A stretch of 20,589 nt of DNA, taken from positions 1 to 20,589 of the IMG/VR virus record IMGVR_UViG_3300017917_002008. The stretch is one strand, 5' to 3'. The notes below the pieces were generated by a model. The model saw only the letters and a list, made by a program, of their open reading frames with translations. It was not told the DNA's origin and searched no databases. The position numbers were made by a program, and so were the translations under genes. Positions 6,284-18,559 of the stretch are shown here, piece after piece (positions within the stretch are counted from its first letter, which is position 1; each line of letters begins with the position of its first letter). The stretch comes from a virus.

Positions 6284-6836
6284 AAGACTAAGACCTAAAT
6301 GGTCAGATGAAGAATTAGCAAAAATATATTCTAAACCCCATGATCACTATAGATTTGGAAGGGGTCATGATATGAGAGTTAAAGTAACTATTGAAATATT
6401 AAAAGACATGTCTAAATTAATTAATGCTAAAACTGGTGGAGACTTAAGTTGCGGTAATGGTGCAATATTAAATAGCATTATACTACAGGAAAAATATTTA
6501 GGAGACTATGCACCCAAGTATGAGTTTGAAGGTCCTTTAGAAAAAACAATATTAGAAATGCCAAATGTAGATATCTATGTATGTTCTGAAACATTAGAGC
6601 ATTTAGATGATCCAGAGCACGCATTAAAATTAATAAGAGAAAAATCTAAATCATTAGTTTTATCTACTCCTATTGAACAATGGGAGGATACAAATTCAGA
6701 ACACTATTGGGCATATGATCGTGAAGGTGTAGAAGAATTATTAAAAAATTCTGGATGGAAACCTAACGTATTTTTATTTTTAGATACACAGGTTTTTGGA
6801 GAATCTTATAAATATGGAATATGGGGATGTAAATGA
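6276..6836 (+). CDS. SAM-dependent methyltransferase-like protein
   Basis: 186 residues. Motif I GGDLSCGNGA (54-63) is a recognisable, slightly altered glycine-rich SAM-binding loop. VCSETLEHLDDP (102-113) and the strand SLVLSTP (126-132) match the motif IV-VI region of small class I methyltransferases (Methyltransf_11/23). It overlaps both neighbours (8 nt upstream, 4 nt downstream) in a glycan operon, so methylation of a sugar is the simplest role. The region between motifs I and IV is shorter than usual, and the acceptor is not identifiable. Confidence 0.65.
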   Translation: MIKRLRPKWSDEELAKIYSKPHDHYRFGRGHDMRVKVTIEILKDMSKLINAKTGGDLSCGNGAILNSIILQEKYLGDYAPKYEFEGPLEKTILEMPNVDIYVCSETLEHLDDPEHALKLIREKSKSLVLSTPIEQWEDTNSEHYWAYDREGVEELLKNSGWKPNVFLFLDTQVFGESYKYGIWGCK

Positions 6837-7699
6837 AAATATTAATAACTGGTCACAGAGGATTTGTTGGTAAATACTTCTGTCAAAAATATAAAGATCA
6901 TGATATAACTGGTATAGATATTGTAGAAGGAAATGATGCAAGAGAATTTTTTAAAGTTAATAATGAATATTTTGATTTAGTAATTCATTTAGCAGCAGTT
7001 GTTGGTGGTCGTGCAACTATAGAAGGATCACCACTATCAGTAGCAGTTGATTTATCAATTGATTCAGAATTATTTGGATGGGCATTAAGAACTAAACCAG
7101 GTAGAATAATTTATTTTTCATCATCTGCAGCATATCCAATAGAGAAGCAGTACAGAAACTCTGGATATAAATTAAAAGAGTCTGATATTAATTTAGAAGA
7201 TGTTCGTAATCCAGATTTAACTTACGGCTGGTCAAAATTAACTGGAGAATACCTCGCACAATTTGCACAAGCAGCAGGTATTAAATTAAATATATTTAGA
7301 CCATTTTCAGGCTACGGAACAGATCAAGACTTATCATATCCATTTCCATCATTTATAGATAGATCAAAAAGAAAGTTGGACCCTTTTCAAATATGGGGAG
7401 ATGGAGAGCAAGTAAGAGATTTTATTCATATGACAGATGTTGTAAATGCAGTAGATGAAGCAATTAAACAAGATATAGAGGGTCCAGTAAACCTTGGATG
7501 GGGTAGGCCAACTAGTTTTAACGAATTAGCATCAATGGTAACTAAGTTTAATAAGTACAGTCCAGACATAGAACATTTAACTGCACAACCTACTGGTGTA
7601 TATTATAGAGTTTGCGATCCAACAAAGATGTTATCCTTTTATACACCCAAGATATCTCTTGAACAAGGTGTTAAGTGGGCTCTAGATAATATTATCTAA
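6833..7699 (+). CDS. NAD-dependent sugar epimerase/dehydratase (extended SDR)
   Basis: 288 residues with all hallmarks of extended SDR enzymes: the glycine-rich GHRGFVG (7-13), LAAVVGG (53-59), Ser in FSSSAAYP (95-102) and the catalytic pair YGWSK (Y131, K135), followed by RPFSGYG and GDGEQVRDFIHMTDVV near the substrate-binding end. These enzymes act on nucleotide sugars such as UDP-glucose or GDP-mannose derivatives. The gene closes the first rightward run of the island, and its last 18 nt overlap a convergent gene through a palindrome. It overlaps the methyltransferase-like gene by 4 nt. Confidence 0.9.
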   Translation: MKILITGHRGFVGKYFCQKYKDHDITGIDIVEGNDAREFFKVNNEYFDLVIHLAAVVGGRATIEGSPLSVAVDLSIDSELFGWALRTKPGRIIYFSSSAAYPIEKQYRNSGYKLKESDINLEDVRNPDLTYGWSKLTGEYLAQFAQAAGIKLNIFRPFSGYGTDQDLSYPFPSFIDRSKRKLDPFQIWGDGEQVRDFIHMTDVVNAVDEAIKQDIEGPVNLGWGRPTSFNELASMVTKFNKYSPDIEHLTAQPTGVYYRVCDPTKMLSFYTPKISLEQGVKWALDNII

Positions 7700-8638
7700 T
7701 AAATTATTAATATATTTTTTATTTAATTTAGGTAATGCTTTATTTAATTTTTCATCAATAAAAGAATCGTAATCATATTTAATTTTGCTTGTATTTTTTT
7801 GAATTGTAGCCCAAGCAACCCACATGCAATTTATATATATACTATACAATTCTGCTATACATGTTTTACGAAAGCAATAGTTTCCGTAATAATTTCTTAT
7901 TATATCTTGTAATATATCAAGTGATAAGTCTGAATCATTCCAAAATACTGCTATGTCATATAGCGGATCACTATTTCCAGAAAATTCAAAATCAATAAAT
8001 TTTATTTCATCATTCTTAGTTAATATAATGTTTGGTGCCCACAAATCTCCATGGCATGGTACTGAAAGTTTAGGCAAATTATTTAAAAATATGCCTATTT
8101 GATTAATATATTTTAATTTTCTTTTTAACTCTCTGGGTAACTTATAATCATTACCAATACATTGAGAATAGTATTTATTAAACATATCAACACAATTTAA
8201 ATCATCTAAAAATCTAGGACCTTCATGTAATTCTTTCATTTTATCTATAACTTTAAATGTAAAATATTTATTTGCTAAATCTTTATTTGTTACCGTAGAA
8301 CCTTCTATATACTCAGTTACTATTATATTTTTTTCAAAGTCATAGTCTATAAGTTTGGGTGCTATTTTCATTTTAGATGCTATATTTAAGTTATGAACCT
8401 CATTACGTCTATTCATTTTTAAATATGGGTTAAAACTTAAAATACGTAGAACTCTAGGTTTTTTATTTATAAAAACTTTATACATACTATTCATAGCCCC
8501 ACCAACAATTGGTTCGTAATGGGTCCATCCCTCGAGACCTTTAACGCTATCTAGTATATTTCTTAAAACTATAGATTTATTTAAAATTGCAGCACCAAAT
8601 GGAGGTATTGATTTTCTTTTATACACCATAGATAACAT
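7682..8638 (-). CDS. Choline/ethanolamine kinase-like phosphotransferase (LicA-type)
   Basis: 318 residues of the APH/choline kinase superfamily. A nucleotide loop GGAMNSMYKV (46-55) is followed by VTEYIEG (108-113), the Brenner catalytic motif CHGDLWAPN (H196, D198, N203) and the metal-binding IDFEFSG (D216, E218). Family enzymes phosphorylate small amino alcohols or sugars with ATP. Divergent pairing with a LicC-like cytidylyltransferase argues for choline, ethanolamine or a similar substrate. The gene is extremely AT-rich and inverted relative to the operon. It has its own promoter, with a GAAAGG ribosome binding site 8-9 nt before the ATG. A macrolide- or aminoglycoside-type kinase is less likely given the neighbour. 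Confidence 0.75.
   Translation of the reverse strand: MLSMVYKRKSIPPFGAAILNKSIVLRNILDSVKGLEGWTHYEPIVGGAMNSMYKVFINKKPRVLRILSFNPYLKMNRRNEVHNLNIASKMKIAPKLIDYDFEKNIIVTEYIEGSTVTNKDLANKYFTFKVIDKMKELHEGPRFLDDLNCVDMFNKYYSQCIGNDYKLPRELKRKLKYINQIGIFLNNLPKLSVPCHGDLWAPNIILTKNDEIKFIDFEFSGNSDPLYDIAVFWNDSDLSLDILQDIIRNYYGNYCFRKTCIAELYSIYINCMWVAWATIQKNTSKIKYDYDSFIDEKLNKALPKLNKKYINNLLDNII
7683..7698. repeat. 16-bp perfect palindrome at the overlap of two convergent genes
   Basis: TAGATAATATTATCTA reads the same on both strands. It makes up the shared ends of the epimerase (+) and the kinase-like gene (-), so both proteins finish with L-D-N-I-I. It is AT-only except for two G:C pairs, so it is a weak terminator stem at best, but it could act on both strands. 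Confidence 0.8.
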
Positions 8639-8666
8639 TGACTAAACCTTTCAACTAAGATATAAT
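8638..8666 (+). promoter_or_regulatory. Promoter TTGACT-N17-TATAAT for the LicC-like gene
   Basis: TTGACT (8638-8643), 17 nt, TATAAT (8661-8666). The -35 box abuts the start codon of the divergent kinase-like gene. Expected transcription start is about 8673, only 3 nt before the ATG at 8676, so the mRNA is probably leaderless. Confidence 0.75.
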
Positions 8667-8693
8667 TATACCACTATGCATAATTGTCGTCAA
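8665..8693 (-). promoter_or_regulatory. Divergent promoter TTGACG-N17-TATAAT for the kinase-like gene
   Basis: On the minus strand TTGACG (8693-8688), 17 nt, TATAAT (8670-8665). Its -10 overlaps the plus-strand -10 by two bases within the palindrome TATAATTATA (8661-8670). Its -35 lies inside codons 5-6 of the opposite gene. The two polymerases cannot occupy both sites at once. Confidence 0.7.
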
Positions 8694-9407
8694 GCAATCA
8701 TACTCGCTGCTGGATCGGGTACAAGACTAAAAAACAGTATACCATTAGAACATCCAAAATCATTGTTCGTATTTAATAATATTACGTTACTAGAAAGAAA
8801 TATAAATTTATTATTCAATTTAGGAGTAGAGGAAATAATAGTTGTCGGTGGATATAAAATAGATATGATTAAGTCTATAACTGATAAATATAATAATGTA
8901 ATTTTAATTAATAATTCATTATATGAAGAAACAGACACCATGTACTCCTTAGGTCTAGCAGAAGAATTTATTAAAGAGTGTTTTATTCTAACTGAAGGAG
9001 ACTTTGTATCAGAATCAAGGGGGTTTAAAAAATTATTAAACAACCATAATAACTCAGTAATATGCTCTCAAAAAAGAAAAAACAATGGAATTGCAGTACC
9101 AGTATTTGAAAATGGTCAATTTAAAAAGTTTTCAAGGTCAGAAAAAGATATTAAATTAAACTCATCAATTGCGTATATAGGTCCATCTCACTTTACTAAG
9201 GATACTTTAATTGCAATGAAGAAGCATAATGCTAATAATGGTAATAAATTATTATATGAAGAAGCATTATCTATGGCAATATCAGAAAATAAGTTTGATA
9301 TATCACTTACATACATAAATAATTTTGATTATTGGGATTTAAATAAGGAAGAAGATTTTAATAATATACAAAAACTAGTTAATAGGCTAGATGGGGTAAA
9401 CTCTTAG
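8676..9407 (+). CDS. LicC-like cytidylyltransferase (nucleotidyltransferase)
   Basis: 243 residues. The signature ILAAGSGTRL (9-18) and PKSL (27-30) start a canonical nucleotidyltransferase domain. NNSLYEETDTMYSL (79-92) matches the position of the YADYNNFYSL block in pneumococcal LicC. Asp109 in TEGDF is the likely metal ligand, and the C-terminal FDYWDLNKEEDFNNI resembles the LicC end. The expected reaction is phosphocholine (or phosphoethanolamine or a phosphonate) plus CTP giving the CDP-activated form. The partner kinase is divergently transcribed from overlapping promoters. The last 29 nt overlap the convergent gene. A generic sugar nucleotidyltransferase is the main alternative. Confidence 0.7.
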   Translation: MHNCRQAIILAAGSGTRLKNSIPLEHPKSLFVFNNITLLERNINLLFNLGVEEIIVVGGYKIDMIKSITDKYNNVILINNSLYEETDTMYSLGLAEEFIKECFILTEGDFVSESRGFKKLLNNHNNSVICSQKRKNNGIAVPVFENGQFKKFSRSEKDIKLNSSIAYIGPSHFTKDTLIAMKKHNANNGNKLLYEEALSMAISENKFDISLTYINNFDYWDLNKEEDFNNIQKLVNRLDGVNS

Positions 9408-10158
9408 ACCAATTATCCCAATCTATTGGATAGTCAAAGTCTTCAGTTTCATCATTCCATTCAACCCAATGAAAATTTTCAGTAGCATGAGGGTCCTCTG
9501 GATCTAATCCAGCCATTATTCTATAAGCCATCTTTGAAGACTCTTCCATTATCCAAGGGTATGGGTTTATCTTGTTTTCATAATCTTCAATAAATTTTTT
9601 AGTTATTTCACATGCCTTTGTAGATGATTCTATTAATTTTTTTAATTTTGATATATGATAATACCAAACAAAATGTTCTCCATAAATTTTTTTAGTTATT
9701 TGTGAACTCATTTTTCTACCGTAATAATGCCAATCTTCTGACTTATTTTCTATAACATGTTTTATTAATTCTTCTGTATAGTAAACATCTCCAAATAGTT
9801 GTACTGTTACGCCATCTTTATTTTCCATTCCTTTGATATGCATAAATTCATGATCTGGATATAAAGCACTTGCTTCAAAATTTGTTTCAATTGCGTTACA
9901 GCCATCTATAACATAAGAGTCAAAATTTTGTTTATTACAAGATACCCAAATATTAGATGCTCCATTTTCTAATAATAGTCTTTGTGTTCTATGAATTAAA
10001 GGTTCACCCTTTATTGGAATTAAATGCTTTGGTACACCTAAATAATTTCCCCATCTGTTGGGAGAACCTATCGTTGACTGTGTTTTATAATACTTAGAAT
10101 AATTTTCTTGGATATCTAGATGCCTATCCCCAGCAGAAATAATAAATTTTTTATTCAT
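9379..10158 (-). CDS. Divergent nucleotidyltransferase-like protein
   Basis: 259 residues. PKHLIPIKGEPLIHRT (43-58) followed by an NGASNIWVSC strand, and FGDVYY (122-127) with an Asp in the metal position, match the PK block, second strand and GD motif of nucleotidyltransferases. The usual Gly-rich AAGxGxR loop is not recognisable; the N-terminus has IISAGDRHLD instead, and about 30 residues separate it from the PK motif. The C-terminal third is rich in Trp, Asp and Glu. It is inverted in the glycan island and overlaps its convergent neighbour by 29 nt. The substrate is unknown, and it may transfer a nucleotide to something other than a sugar phosphate. Confidence 0.6.
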   Translation of the reverse strand: MNKKFIISAGDRHLDIQENYSKYYKTQSTIGSPNRWGNYLGVPKHLIPIKGEPLIHRTQRLLLENGASNIWVSCNKQNFDSYVIDGCNAIETNFEASALYPDHEFMHIKGMENKDGVTVQLFGDVYYTEELIKHVIENKSEDWHYYGRKMSSQITKKIYGEHFVWYYHISKLKKLIESSTKACEITKKFIEDYENKINPYPWIMEESSKMAYRIMAGLDPEDPHATENFHWVEWNDETEDFDYPIDWDNWSKSLPHLAY

Positions 10159-15218: not shown

Positions 15219-15440
15219 ATGGGTTATAATGGATATGTGGAACAAAATCCACCAAATAAAACTGAAGGTGAAAGTATGCCCTGGGAAAGACTACAAAAGA
15301 TTTTACTAGAACTACAAAAGGTTAGCGATCATAGATATGGTCCTGGACCAACATTTTGGAACGACGTAGATATAACTGGTAAGTTCCCTAATAAATCTGA
15401 ATTAATGAAAGTAAAAAAAGAAAGTAAAAAGAAAAAATGA
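15219..15440 (+). CDS. Small hypothetical protein (73 aa)
   Basis: 73 residues whose ATG directly follows the previous stop. It has a helical core (WERLQKILLELQKV) and a strongly basic C-terminus (KVKKESKKKK) that may contact nucleic acid. It overlaps the next tiny membrane gene by 4 nt (ATGA). No family is recognised. Confidence 0.55.
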   Translation: MGYNGYVEQNPPNKTEGESMPWERLQKILLELQKVSDHRYGPGPTFWNDVDITGKFPNKSELMKVKKESKKKK

Positions 15441-15520
15441 TCGGCGGTATTTTTACAATGATCGTAATATCTGTTTTAATGCTATTCGGTATGTATAACA
15501 TTATAAATAAGAATAGATAA
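15437..15520 (+). CDS. Tiny membrane peptide (27 aa)
   Basis: 27 residues that are almost entirely one transmembrane helix (IFTMIVISVLMLFGMYNII) ending in NKNR. It starts on an ATGA overlap and ends 3 nt before the second 2OG oxygenase. Operon position is the main support. Confidence 0.5.
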   Translation: MIGGIFTMIVISVLMLFGMYNIINKNR

Positions 15521-16964: not shown

Positions 16965-17164
16965 AAAGGTACAAAAAATCGGGGGAAGAATTAGAAGTAT
17001 TAAACTTTCCTATAGACCTAATAATACATACTAAAGTACCTAATAAGTATTTATTAATAGACCAAGAAACAAATGAAGTTTATATCGGAGATAAATCAGG
17101 ATATTGGACTAATATAGGATATCTACATAATGATCAAATAATCGTCCAAAATGGGCTATTTTAG
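16961..17164 (+). CDS. Small hypothetical protein (67 aa), last gene of the operon
   Basis: 67 residues, probably beta-rich (KYLLIDQETNEVYIGDKSGYWTNIGYL). GGAGG lies upstream (about 16942-16946). It overlaps the previous gene by 4 nt and ends in the loop of a terminator-like hairpin. It closes the rightward operon that began at the speD promoter. No function is assigned. Confidence 0.55.
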   Translation: MKRYKKSGEELEVLNFPIDLIIHTKVPNKYLLIDQETNEVYIGDKSGYWTNIGYLHNDQIIVQNGLF

Positions 17165-17171
17165 CCTTTTT
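17154..17171 (+). terminator. Possible short terminator at the end of the rightward operon
   Basis: GGCT (17154-17157), loop ATTTT, AGCC (17163-17166) and then five T (17167-17171). The stem is only 4-5 bp, and the stop codon TAG lies across it. It is suitable in position but weak. Confidence 0.4.
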
Positions 17172-17271
17172 AATACCCCCTGGACATTGCTTTATAGAAT
17201 TAAAAATGATATAAGAATTTATAAATAGGATTATATTGGAATAAAATGGAGGAAAGTGGTAGATTGAGCAT

Positions 17272-17295
17272 ACCATATCTTAATCGTAATGTCAA
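17272..17295 (-). promoter_or_regulatory. Promoter-like copy facing left: TTGACA...TATGCT
   Basis: On the minus strand TTGACA (17295-17290), then TTACGAT...ATATGG and TATGCT (about 17272-17267). It matches the element at 18085-18114 in content and order (TTGACA, TTACGAT, ATATGGTAT) except for 4-5 nt indels. It would fire leftward, antisense to the end of the rightward operon. Confidence 0.35.
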
Positions 17296-17341
17296 TAGAC
17301 CCATGACAAATAAATAATTTCATTATATTATGTCAAATATT

Positions 17342-17370
17342 CCAGGATTTTTTCATATTCTTCGTAATAC
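17342..17370 (+). repeat. Direct repeat copy A: CCAGG-N14-TTCGTAATAC
   Basis: CCAGG at 17342-17346 and TTCGTAATAC at 17361-17370, 19 nt between their first bases. A longer similarity upstream (TTATG..AAATAT) is shared with copy B. Confidence 0.65.
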
Positions 17371-17384
17371 TTTTATAAAAATAT

Positions 17385-17422
17385 ATGCAAATATTTTGCC
17401 TGATTCCAGGCATATTTTGCAT
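17385..17422. repeat. Imperfect hairpin in the intergenic region
   Basis: ATGCAAA...GCCTG (17385-17402) pairs with CAGGC...TTTGCAT (17407-17422), with one AT-rich bulge and a 4-nt loop. Its right arm contains the CCAGG of repeat copy C. Confidence 0.65.
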
Positions 17423-17434
17423 TATTCGTAATAC
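17406..17434 (+). repeat. Direct repeat copy C: CCAGG-N14-TTCGTAATAC
   Basis: CCAGG at 17406-17410 and TTCGTAATAC at 17425-17434, with exactly the spacing of copies A and B. It is embedded in the hairpin at 17385-17422. Confidence 0.65.
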
Positions 17435-17501
17435 TTTTTAATGTATTATGTATGTATTATTATTTAAAGTAGATAGATAATTATAGATTTTATTACCCCG
17501 C

Positions 17502-18056
17502 CTAAATCTCGGCGTAAACGATGGGCCCCGCACATGCTGGGTTGTATTCAATGGCAGCACTGACGGCAATTTTTAGCCGCTTCGTAATGTCTTTGTAGGA
17601 TCGAGTTGTGTATAGGGAGCCGAAGGCTAGGTGGGAGCCGCTCCCTATAGCACCTTCTAAGTACTCATTGAACTGGAAGTCCTCCGAATTAAATTCAAAG
17701 AGTCTTCCCTTTACTGCAATGAGTGCCGAGAGCCCGCCTTCGCCTTTTTCGTCAACGGAGGGGGAAGTAGAAGGAGAATATAAATTAATAGCATTCTTAA
17801 AACATAATGCAAATTTAGTTCTCATAAATTTTAATAAATCTTTATTTGGCACATTTGGATCTGGAAGATCAATACTGTGCAATAATTGGCCAAGGCCAGT
17901 TTCACCAGCATATCCTATTAAATATTTTCCATTTCTTTGTATTTTAGGATCTAATATAGGAGTCATAATACTTTCATCAGATGCCCCCGAATCCGCTGCC
18001 ATATAAACTTTGCGGGGGGTAGAAAGATTATCTACAATACCTACTATACAAGTCAT
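17502..18056 (-). CDS. Proteasome/HslV-like Ntn hydrolase
   Basis: 184 residues. After Met removal, Thr2 would be the N-terminal nucleophile (T-C-I-V-G). MAADSGAS supplies Asp22, DPKIQ supplies Lys38 in the usual proteasome Lys33-like position, YAGE follows, and AIGSGSHLAFGSLY matches the GSG core of proteasome-beta/HslV proteins. It is close to HslV in length (about 175). The natural role would be peptide-bond or related hydrolysis; no HslU-type ATPase is present. The ribosome binding site AAGGTGGAG and a good promoter precede it. The 3' half (17502-about 17765) is about 50% GC, the 5' half about 25-35%, a sharp break near codon 97. The gene is flanked by degenerate direct repeats. Confidence 0.75.
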   Translation of the reverse strand: MTCIVGIVDNLSTPRKVYMAADSGASDESIMTPILDPKIQRNGKYLIGYAGETGLGQLLHSIDLPDPNVPNKDLLKFMRTKFALCFKNAINLYSPSTSPSVDEKGEGGLSALIAVKGRLFEFNSEDFQFNEYLEGAIGSGSHLAFGSLYTTRSYKDITKRLKIAVSAAIEYNPACAGPIVYAEI

Positions 18057-18084
18057 TACTCCACCTTAATATATATACTGGACA

Positions 18085-18114
18085 ATAATACCATATATCG
18101 TAATACCATGTCAA
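18085..18114 (-). promoter_or_regulatory. Promoter TTGACA-N18-TATTAT for the Ntn hydrolase
   Basis: Minus strand TTGACA (18114-18109), 18 nt, TATTAT (18090-18085). A CTGGA-N14-ATCGTAATACC sequence (from 18078) spans the promoter and may be a degenerate fourth copy of the repeat, which would suit an operator. Confidence 0.65.
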
Positions 18115-18146
18115 TATCTGGAAAATATAACGAAGTTATGAAATAT

Positions 18147-18175
18147 CCAGGAAATTTTTATATCCTTCGTAATAT
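18147..18175 (+). repeat. Direct repeat copy B: CCAGG-N14-TTCGTAATA
   Basis: CCAGG at 18147-18151 and TTCGTAATA at 18166-18174, spaced as in copies A and C. It lies in the intergenic region upstream of the Ntn hydrolase promoter and follows a small dyad (ATAAC-GAA-GTTAT, about 18127-18139). Confidence 0.65.
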
Positions 18176-18180
18176 CAATA

Positions 18181-18209
18181 TTGACAAAATTTAAAAGATA
18201 TGATATAAG
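18181..18209 (+). promoter_or_regulatory. Rightward promoter TTGACA-N17-TATAAG with extended -10, antisense
   Basis: TTGACA (18181-18186), 17 nt, TATAAG (18204-18209) preceded by TGA (extended -10). It points rightward into the 3' end of the leftward operon, where no plus-strand gene is visible. It could produce an antisense or small RNA. Confidence 0.55.
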
Positions 18210-18253: not shown

Positions 18254-18559
18254 CTAATCTTTCTTAGGGGATCTGTATGCAGACTTTGCCATGTCCTCGA
18301 TAGTTTCATAGATAGCATCAGGGTTGCATCCAATTAGATTGCAGACTTCATCCCAAGTATAGTCTAGGTGCAAGATAGCGTCACCCTCGTTCATTGTAAT
18401 TAAGTCATTGGCTAGAAGCATGGCTAATGGAACACCAATATCATTTTTAGTTTTAAATGGTATTAGTCTTTCATCATCTCTAAATCGTCTAACAAATGCT
18501 GTAATTAGGATTGCTCTTTCTTTAAAGCCTAATGAATACCTGCCGTCATCAAATGACAT
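18254..18559 (-). CDS. Hypothetical protein (101 aa)
   Basis: 101 residues, mainly helical, with charged patches. YTWDEVCNLIGCNPDAIYETIEDM in the C-terminal half has a helix-turn-helix feel, so a DNA-binding role is possible, but no family is recognised. It overlaps the upstream gene by 11 nt. About 200 nt of intergenic sequence separates it from the Ntn hydrolase. Confidence 0.6.
   Translation of the reverse strand: MSFDDGRYSLGFKERAILITAFVRRFRDDERLIPFKTKNDIGVPLAMLLANDLITMNEGDAILHLDYTWDEVCNLIGCNPDAIYETIEDMAKSAYRSPKKD

Follow-up and report, generated by a model that had tools for sequence, protein, structure and literature searches.

The 33-bp elements on either side of an HslV-like gene in this uncultured viral DNA (the window, a stretch of 20,589 nucleotides) belong to a conserved locus that may well be a control region of the replication-origin type, with the gene inserted into it as cargo. 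As we picture it, this would be a single non-coding locus of ~0.6 kb in relatives, found a single time in each genome where the leftward early gene block ends, and built from several 33-bp one-directional elements that are putative protein-binding sites, a GTGGA array, and sigma70-like promoters pointing both ways; 13 of 31 element-bearing relatives add a host-type DnaA loading unit. A protein bound to the oriented elements would govern both promoter firing and strand opening at the locus, host DnaA would open the DNA where DnaA boxes remain, and in the window's clade the HslV-like gene would have entered the locus together with its own promoter, an insertion that would have pushed the element copies apart so that they now look like brackets.

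Metagenomes are nearly the only source of knowledge on phages that infect the most abundant freshwater actinobacteria, and for this phage group we came across no published description of an origin or early-control element. A conserved locus in which relatives combine the element, the array, and the DnaA unit is a concrete site at which to test where replication starts and whether host DnaA is hijacked.

Element copies and brackets in the window

A pattern scan of the window with CCAGG-N14-TTCGTAATA returns three exact matches, all on the plus strand (17342-17369, 17406-17433, and 18147-18174), and the total stays at three when up to 2 mismatches are tolerated, compared with a shuffle mean of 0.13 and no shuffle with three. 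The three copies described in an earlier note on this DNA are thus real, and its spacing of 19 nt from CCAGG to TTCG is correct. Each match lies within a 33-bp element:

17340..17372, plus strand: element copy 1 (CCAGG 17342 to TTCGTAATA 17369; PWM score 28.4)
17404..17436, plus strand: element copy 2 (CCAGG 17406 to TTCGTAATA 17433; PWM score 24.8)
18145..18177, plus strand: element copy 3 (CCAGG 18147 to TTCGTAATA 18174; PWM score 28.0)

The two segments that bracket the gene (17265-17376 and 18083-18176), which the earlier note took to be similar and in the same order, align over their full length in that order with a Smith-Waterman score of 74; exact dinucleotide shuffles gave a mean of 32.6 and a maximum of 59, and 0 of 1000 reached the observed score. 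Together with the pattern scan, these shuffles rule out chance similarity of AT-rich DNA. Indels of 4 nt and 5 nt fall in the first half of the brackets (ACCATAT..ATCGTAAT..GTCAATA). The relative L008 has three copies at the same positions and in the same orientation as the window, surrounding its own HslV-like gene. The bare CCAGG-N14-TTCGTAATA pattern also arises by chance in large collections, where many of the at least 119 matching stretches are unrelated; specificity resides in the extended element.

Copy 2 is the best-conserved copy within the clade, and the left half of this copy forms an arm of a local inverted repeat. Inverted repeats are joined to both copy 2 (17391-17427, GCCTG-ATTC-CAGGC) and copy 3 (18112-18152, CTGGAAAATATAAC-GAA-GTTATGAAATATCCAG); in some relatives, changes within these repeats appear to compensate each other. 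We rejected a hairpin as the common feature of the copies; copy 2 and the L133-type copies have a conspicuous one, but many copies have none. A short protein-coding repeat was also rejected, judging from sequence alone: translated, the copies give ...PGxFxIxRN..., but neither the frame nor the stops are preserved. An extra intergenic profile match (ATCGGCGGTATTTTTACAATGATCGTAATATCT, score 22) lies at 15440-15472, inside the rightward gene block.

An oriented element shared by uncultured actinophages

In the window, CCAGG-N14-TTCGTAATA represents a 33-bp asymmetric element that is common to a large group of uncultured WhiB-encoding actinophages. A profile built from 114 sites reads TT[CT]NGGGAWWTTTT-N6-CCTTCGTAAT[AG][CT]CTTTT with fixed spacing; relatives whose HslV-like proteins are 73-87% identical mostly lack CCAGG and carry another left half (TGGGC, CTGGC) at equal distance from TTCGTAATA. 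WhiB is encoded in 16 of 17 records, indicating an actinobacterial host; the protein has been used as a marker of such hosts (PMC6802176, PMC10202952).

The relatives were retrieved through a conserved neighbor, which serves as the anchor of the locus:

18254..18559, minus strand: ND gene (101 aa, YND[IL]G[LIV]P motif), conserved

For the ND protein, searches of cultured phages and PHROGs gave no match, and a DNA search of cultured phages returned only trivial short matches, so that no annotated relative of the locus was found in either. We worked with viral contigs, taking the best 80 of 381 related stretches and counting elements over 46 non-redundant loci beside the ND gene. One orientation accounts for 69 matches to the exact core and the other for a single match (2.2 in shuffles), and profile-scored sites number 121 versus 0. 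As the PWMs were partly trained on these same loci, we use the reverse strand and the loci that lack elements as controls. We regard it as very highly probable that the elements are real, conserved DNA sites.

Near-complete genomes have 2-5 profile matches each, essentially all at one locus (0-0.3 in shuffles). In G025, G026, and G032 (near-complete, ~100 kb each), intergenic TTCGTAAT and profile matches are essentially confined to this locus, which lies where a leftward gene block ends or close to that point; whole-genome scans thereby exclude a dispersed regulon. A subset of phages has 1-2 further copies just upstream of other leftward promoters (L276 at 2942, L272 at 1132 and 2587, L253 at 3001, L221 at 1420, L278 at 1233, and L204 at 2249); these promoters are sigma70-like and belong to other early genes, for example the MHTMQYLATELELDL gene, a placement that fits transcription control. 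Elsewhere in G025 (L171-L176), at 88429-89364, an open frame starting VSSLIDIKVVGCGGGGINAVDSMILSGLSG.. looks like an FtsZ-type protein.

A slot for small cargo genes

17502..18056, minus strand: HslV-like Ntn hydrolase, cargo gene (184 aa; Thr2 invariant in 10 relatives)

The product is predicted to be an HslV-like Ntn hydrolase, in keeping with the Ntn hydrolase gene that the earlier note placed between the copies: it matches PHROG 1040 (E 2.5e-17), its N-terminal MT start would supply the nucleophile Thr, and its homologs in cultured phages carry the annotation "peptidase HslV family". This putative peptidase resembles other phage HslV-type peptidases (PHROG 1040) in the MT start, the invariant Thr2, and the family match, but differs in having no Pfam match at 1e-3.

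The earlier description of repeats "around a cargo gene" is borne out by relatives that hold no gene or a different gene at the locus. In L263, L234, and L228, the 400-620 bp separating the anchor gene from the array are free of ORFs of 50 aa over all or most of their length, so that the gene is indeed absent between the repeats in some relatives; elsewhere the slot contains HslV alone, HslV with a 109-112-aa gene, an MSPRHF-type gene, or a 305-324-aa gene with MSPRHF. Given these cargo-less and alternative-cargo forms, the favored view is that an insertion opened a single non-coding locus whose two sides are now the brackets, rather than that a duplication arose around the gene. We hold with high confidence that HslV is an insertion into a pre-existing locus, and we infer that the cargo-less state is ancestral; a single conserved insertion locus explains why unrelated small genes recur at one spot.

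The 109-112-aa gene follows HslV within the slot in L004 (13803-14141) and L045 (9677-10006). Members of the MSPRHF.. protein family (~60-75 aa) lie between the ND gene and the array in L202, L205, L206, L217, L219, L241, and L243; several of their genes have a TATAAT-like box a few nt before the ATG and are possibly leaderless.

Changing cargo at a fixed slot, and the inverted repeats that flank some copies, might also be expected of recombination or cassette sites of the integron or pdif type, whose direct copies would let cargo genes enter and leave. We think this improbable: i) the 2-6 copies also occur in cargo-less forms; ii) what is kept is the promoters and the spacing, not a crossover core; iii) hairpins and arms are inconsistent between copies, unlike the inverted binding arms of integron or pdif cassettes; and iv) no tyrosine integrase (PF00589) was found in any of 17 records, a host recombinase being possible in principle. 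The "recombination footprint" of the earlier note fares no better, since the copies are too diverged for a recent duplication, the elements are lineage-conserved parts of a fixed module and not a target-site duplication, and a tyrosine integrase is again missing from the 17 records.

Promoter-like sequences overlap the elements

Read on the minus strand, the first part of each bracket is a sigma70-like promoter; a rightward promoter and a terminator-like hairpin lie on the plus strand:

17267..17295, minus strand: leftward sigma70-like promoter, left bracket (TTGACA-N17-TATGCT, TTACGA in spacer; same in L130, L133, L135, and L112)
18085..18114, minus strand: predicted promoter of the HslV-like gene (TTGACA-N18-TATTAT, 11/12, TG-extended; ATTACGA in spacer)
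18181..18209, plus strand: rightward promoter (TTGACA-N17-TATAAG) aimed at the 3' end of the ND gene (equivalents in L126, L128, L130, L133, L212, L216, and L236)
17153..17167, plus strand: intrinsic terminator-like hairpin that ends the rightward gene block

The two bracket promoters are among the three best of nine promoter-like sites, a total that is not above shuffles for that stretch; both have the TG extension, and TTACGA (the complement of TCGTAA) is kept in both spacers and in relatives. We count 40 leftward and 20 rightward promoter-like sequences, compared with 7.1 and 6.0 in shuffles, and the elements fall inside promoter spacers or next to -35 boxes, with several registers and both strands represented.

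The main rival to an origin is accordingly a set of purely transcriptional operators, in which a phage or host regulator on the asymmetric 33-bp sites would repress or activate the early promoters that diverge where the leftward operon ends, among them that of the HslV-like gene, the DnaA boxes of relatives being separate neighbors. This is a real possibility. It draws on the overlap with promoters, on the extra copies upstream of other leftward promoters, and on the precedent of asymmetric, orientation-dependent phage operators bound by a two-domain monomer (PMC9283540); the "repeated operator" half of the earlier note fits the observations too, as these are conserved asymmetric sites on or beside sigma70-like promoters, the one at 18114-18085 being near consensus. 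Operators alone, however, do not need near-confinement to one locus per near-complete genome, nor an array and DnaA unit found solely where the element occurs, and the missing tyrosine integrase in 17 records means that a lysogeny repressor is not obviously required.

Cluster A mycobacteriophages offer the closest comparison for such operators, with more than 20 13-bp stoperators or operators dispersed over their genomes (PMC9283540). Our elements are like stoperators in being asymmetric sites in phages of actinobacteria, strictly oriented to early transcription (121 versus 0), but differ in being 2-5 longer sites essentially at one locus, in records where we found neither a repressor nor a tyrosine integrase.

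If the elements were instead core promoters for a phage sigma factor or RNA polymerase, CCAGG would be the -35 and CGTAATA the -10 sequence, consistent with a bipartite structure, a fixed spacing of 16-18 nt, and a single orientation. That reading is the least probable of those considered here: no sigma70 region 2 (PF04542) or region 4 (PF04545) domain was found in 15 element-bearing records in searches with positive controls, lineages differ in the left half but share a constant right half, and the copies are directed away from genes.

A near-perfect TTGACA/T-N17-TATAAT promoter lies 3' of the ND gene in L212, L216, L236, L254 (TAAAAT), and L262, with a predicted short transcript (..GGTCGG..) that is antisense to the ND gene end and reaches a GC-rich hairpin there. 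The phage lambda oop transcript is a very short antisense RNA of this kind, and an oop-like RNA at the ND gene end is possible.

A phased array adjoins DnaA boxes in relatives

17236..17272, plus strand: 10-bp-phased TGG/GTGGA array (TTGGAATAAAATGGAGGAAAGTGGTAGATTGAGCATA), conserved and shared with group-2 phages

The array block GTGGAGTAAAGTGGAGGATAGTGGAGTATAG forms the left end of the locus. Within the window's clade no other part of the left flank is as well conserved, and the block is found again in distant phages. Array and element occur together in 24 of the 46 loci; 7 have the element only, none the array only, and 15 neither.

Since, in the window's clade, the array coincides with the ~40 nt that immediately follow a near-consensus leftward promoter, its leftward transcript (CAAUCUACCACUUUCCUCCAUUUUAUUCC) might be a regulatory RNA or a rut-like terminator, with the repeats as its promoters. 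We found no Rfam match and no consistent fold, and conservation in group 2 extends into DnaA boxes, which are DNA sites; an RNA-level element is thus quite unlikely.

An origin-type control region is consistent with what lies left of the array in many group-2 phages, namely TTATCCACA-GGT-TTATCCACA-GATTA-ATCTTACTGATTATATT, in which a pair of DnaA boxes separated by 2-4 bp is followed, after a short spacer, by at least 3 DnaA-trio-like triplets. Tandem boxes of the TTATCCACA type are present in about half of the group-2 relatives, and the ATCTTACTG run of N-T-N triplets, conserved in the aligned group-2 loci, matches the DnaA-box and DnaA-trio rule of the bacterial oriC basal unwinding system, which we applied in our searches (PMC8287927). 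The 5,760 nt beside the group-2 arrays contain 34 exact DnaA boxes in a single orientation, with ~1 expected from background. When we required a pair of boxes followed by three or more triplets carrying the central base that DnaA-trios need, we obtained 15 units in 685 kb and 0 in shuffles, and every such unit in a locus with a mapped array adjoins the array; G026 and G032 each have exactly one in ~100 kb, at the locus. A looser form of the unit occurs in 13 of 31 element-bearing loci and in 0 of 15 element-less loci. The signal is strong beside the array; within 500 nt of the ND gene alone, enrichment of DnaA boxes is weak (8 versus 3.8).

The window's own clade is another matter. No consensus DnaA box was found in 2,400 nt of locus from the window and its 9 closest sampled array-bearing loci, relatives of this clade have DnaA boxes in a different non-coding gap (G025 6.4-9.8 kb, G024 8.2 kb), and the window has no box unit with at least 3 DnaA-trios within 16 bp of a box; the clade mostly has ATGTTA[T/C]AAG or similar at the DnaA-box position. 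Nor does third-position GC skew indicate a bidirectional origin at the locus, leaning the opposite way. The missing boxes and the skew are real weaknesses of the origin reading. Duplex stability places the locus among the 0.04-1% least stable positions in the records of larger relatives, and among the least stable 3% in the window. We conclude with moderate confidence that the locus is or was a replication origin in group 2, and with lower confidence that it is or was one in the window's clade, where it would have to work without consensus DnaA boxes.

Likeness to known origins

The bacterial oriC basal unwinding system (PMC8287927) resembles the locus in the box pair and trios of group 2, once per genome in G026 and G032; unlike it, the window's clade has no boxes, the phages carry no dnaA (DnaA domain IV was not found in the phage records), and a GTGGA array and 33-bp elements are added.

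Other features recall the iteron origins of plasmids and phages, such as lambda ori, in which direct copies in the same orientation lie at a single AT-rich locus with transcription nearby. Our locus likewise is single and AT-rich, with several one-orientation direct copies and transcription nearby; unlike iterons, its copies are irregularly spaced over up to 0.6 kb, lie on promoters, and are outside any initiator gene, and we identified no replication initiator candidate in the phages.

More tentatively still, and with considerable doubt, we suggest that these phages could represent a new class of actinophage origin, in which a DnaA-box/DnaA-trio unit, a phased GTGGA array, and an oriented 33-bp iteron family would double as a slot for small early cargo, the window's clade having dropped the host DnaA boxes and kept the phage-specific half.

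A second group of DnaA boxes, often TTATCCACAGGGGCGCGG, occupies other parts of the early region, inside or close to long non-coding gaps (G025 6400-9800, G024 8204-8224, G018 22300-24620, and G026 60100-62040), and may be a DnaA-dependent site in the window's clade.
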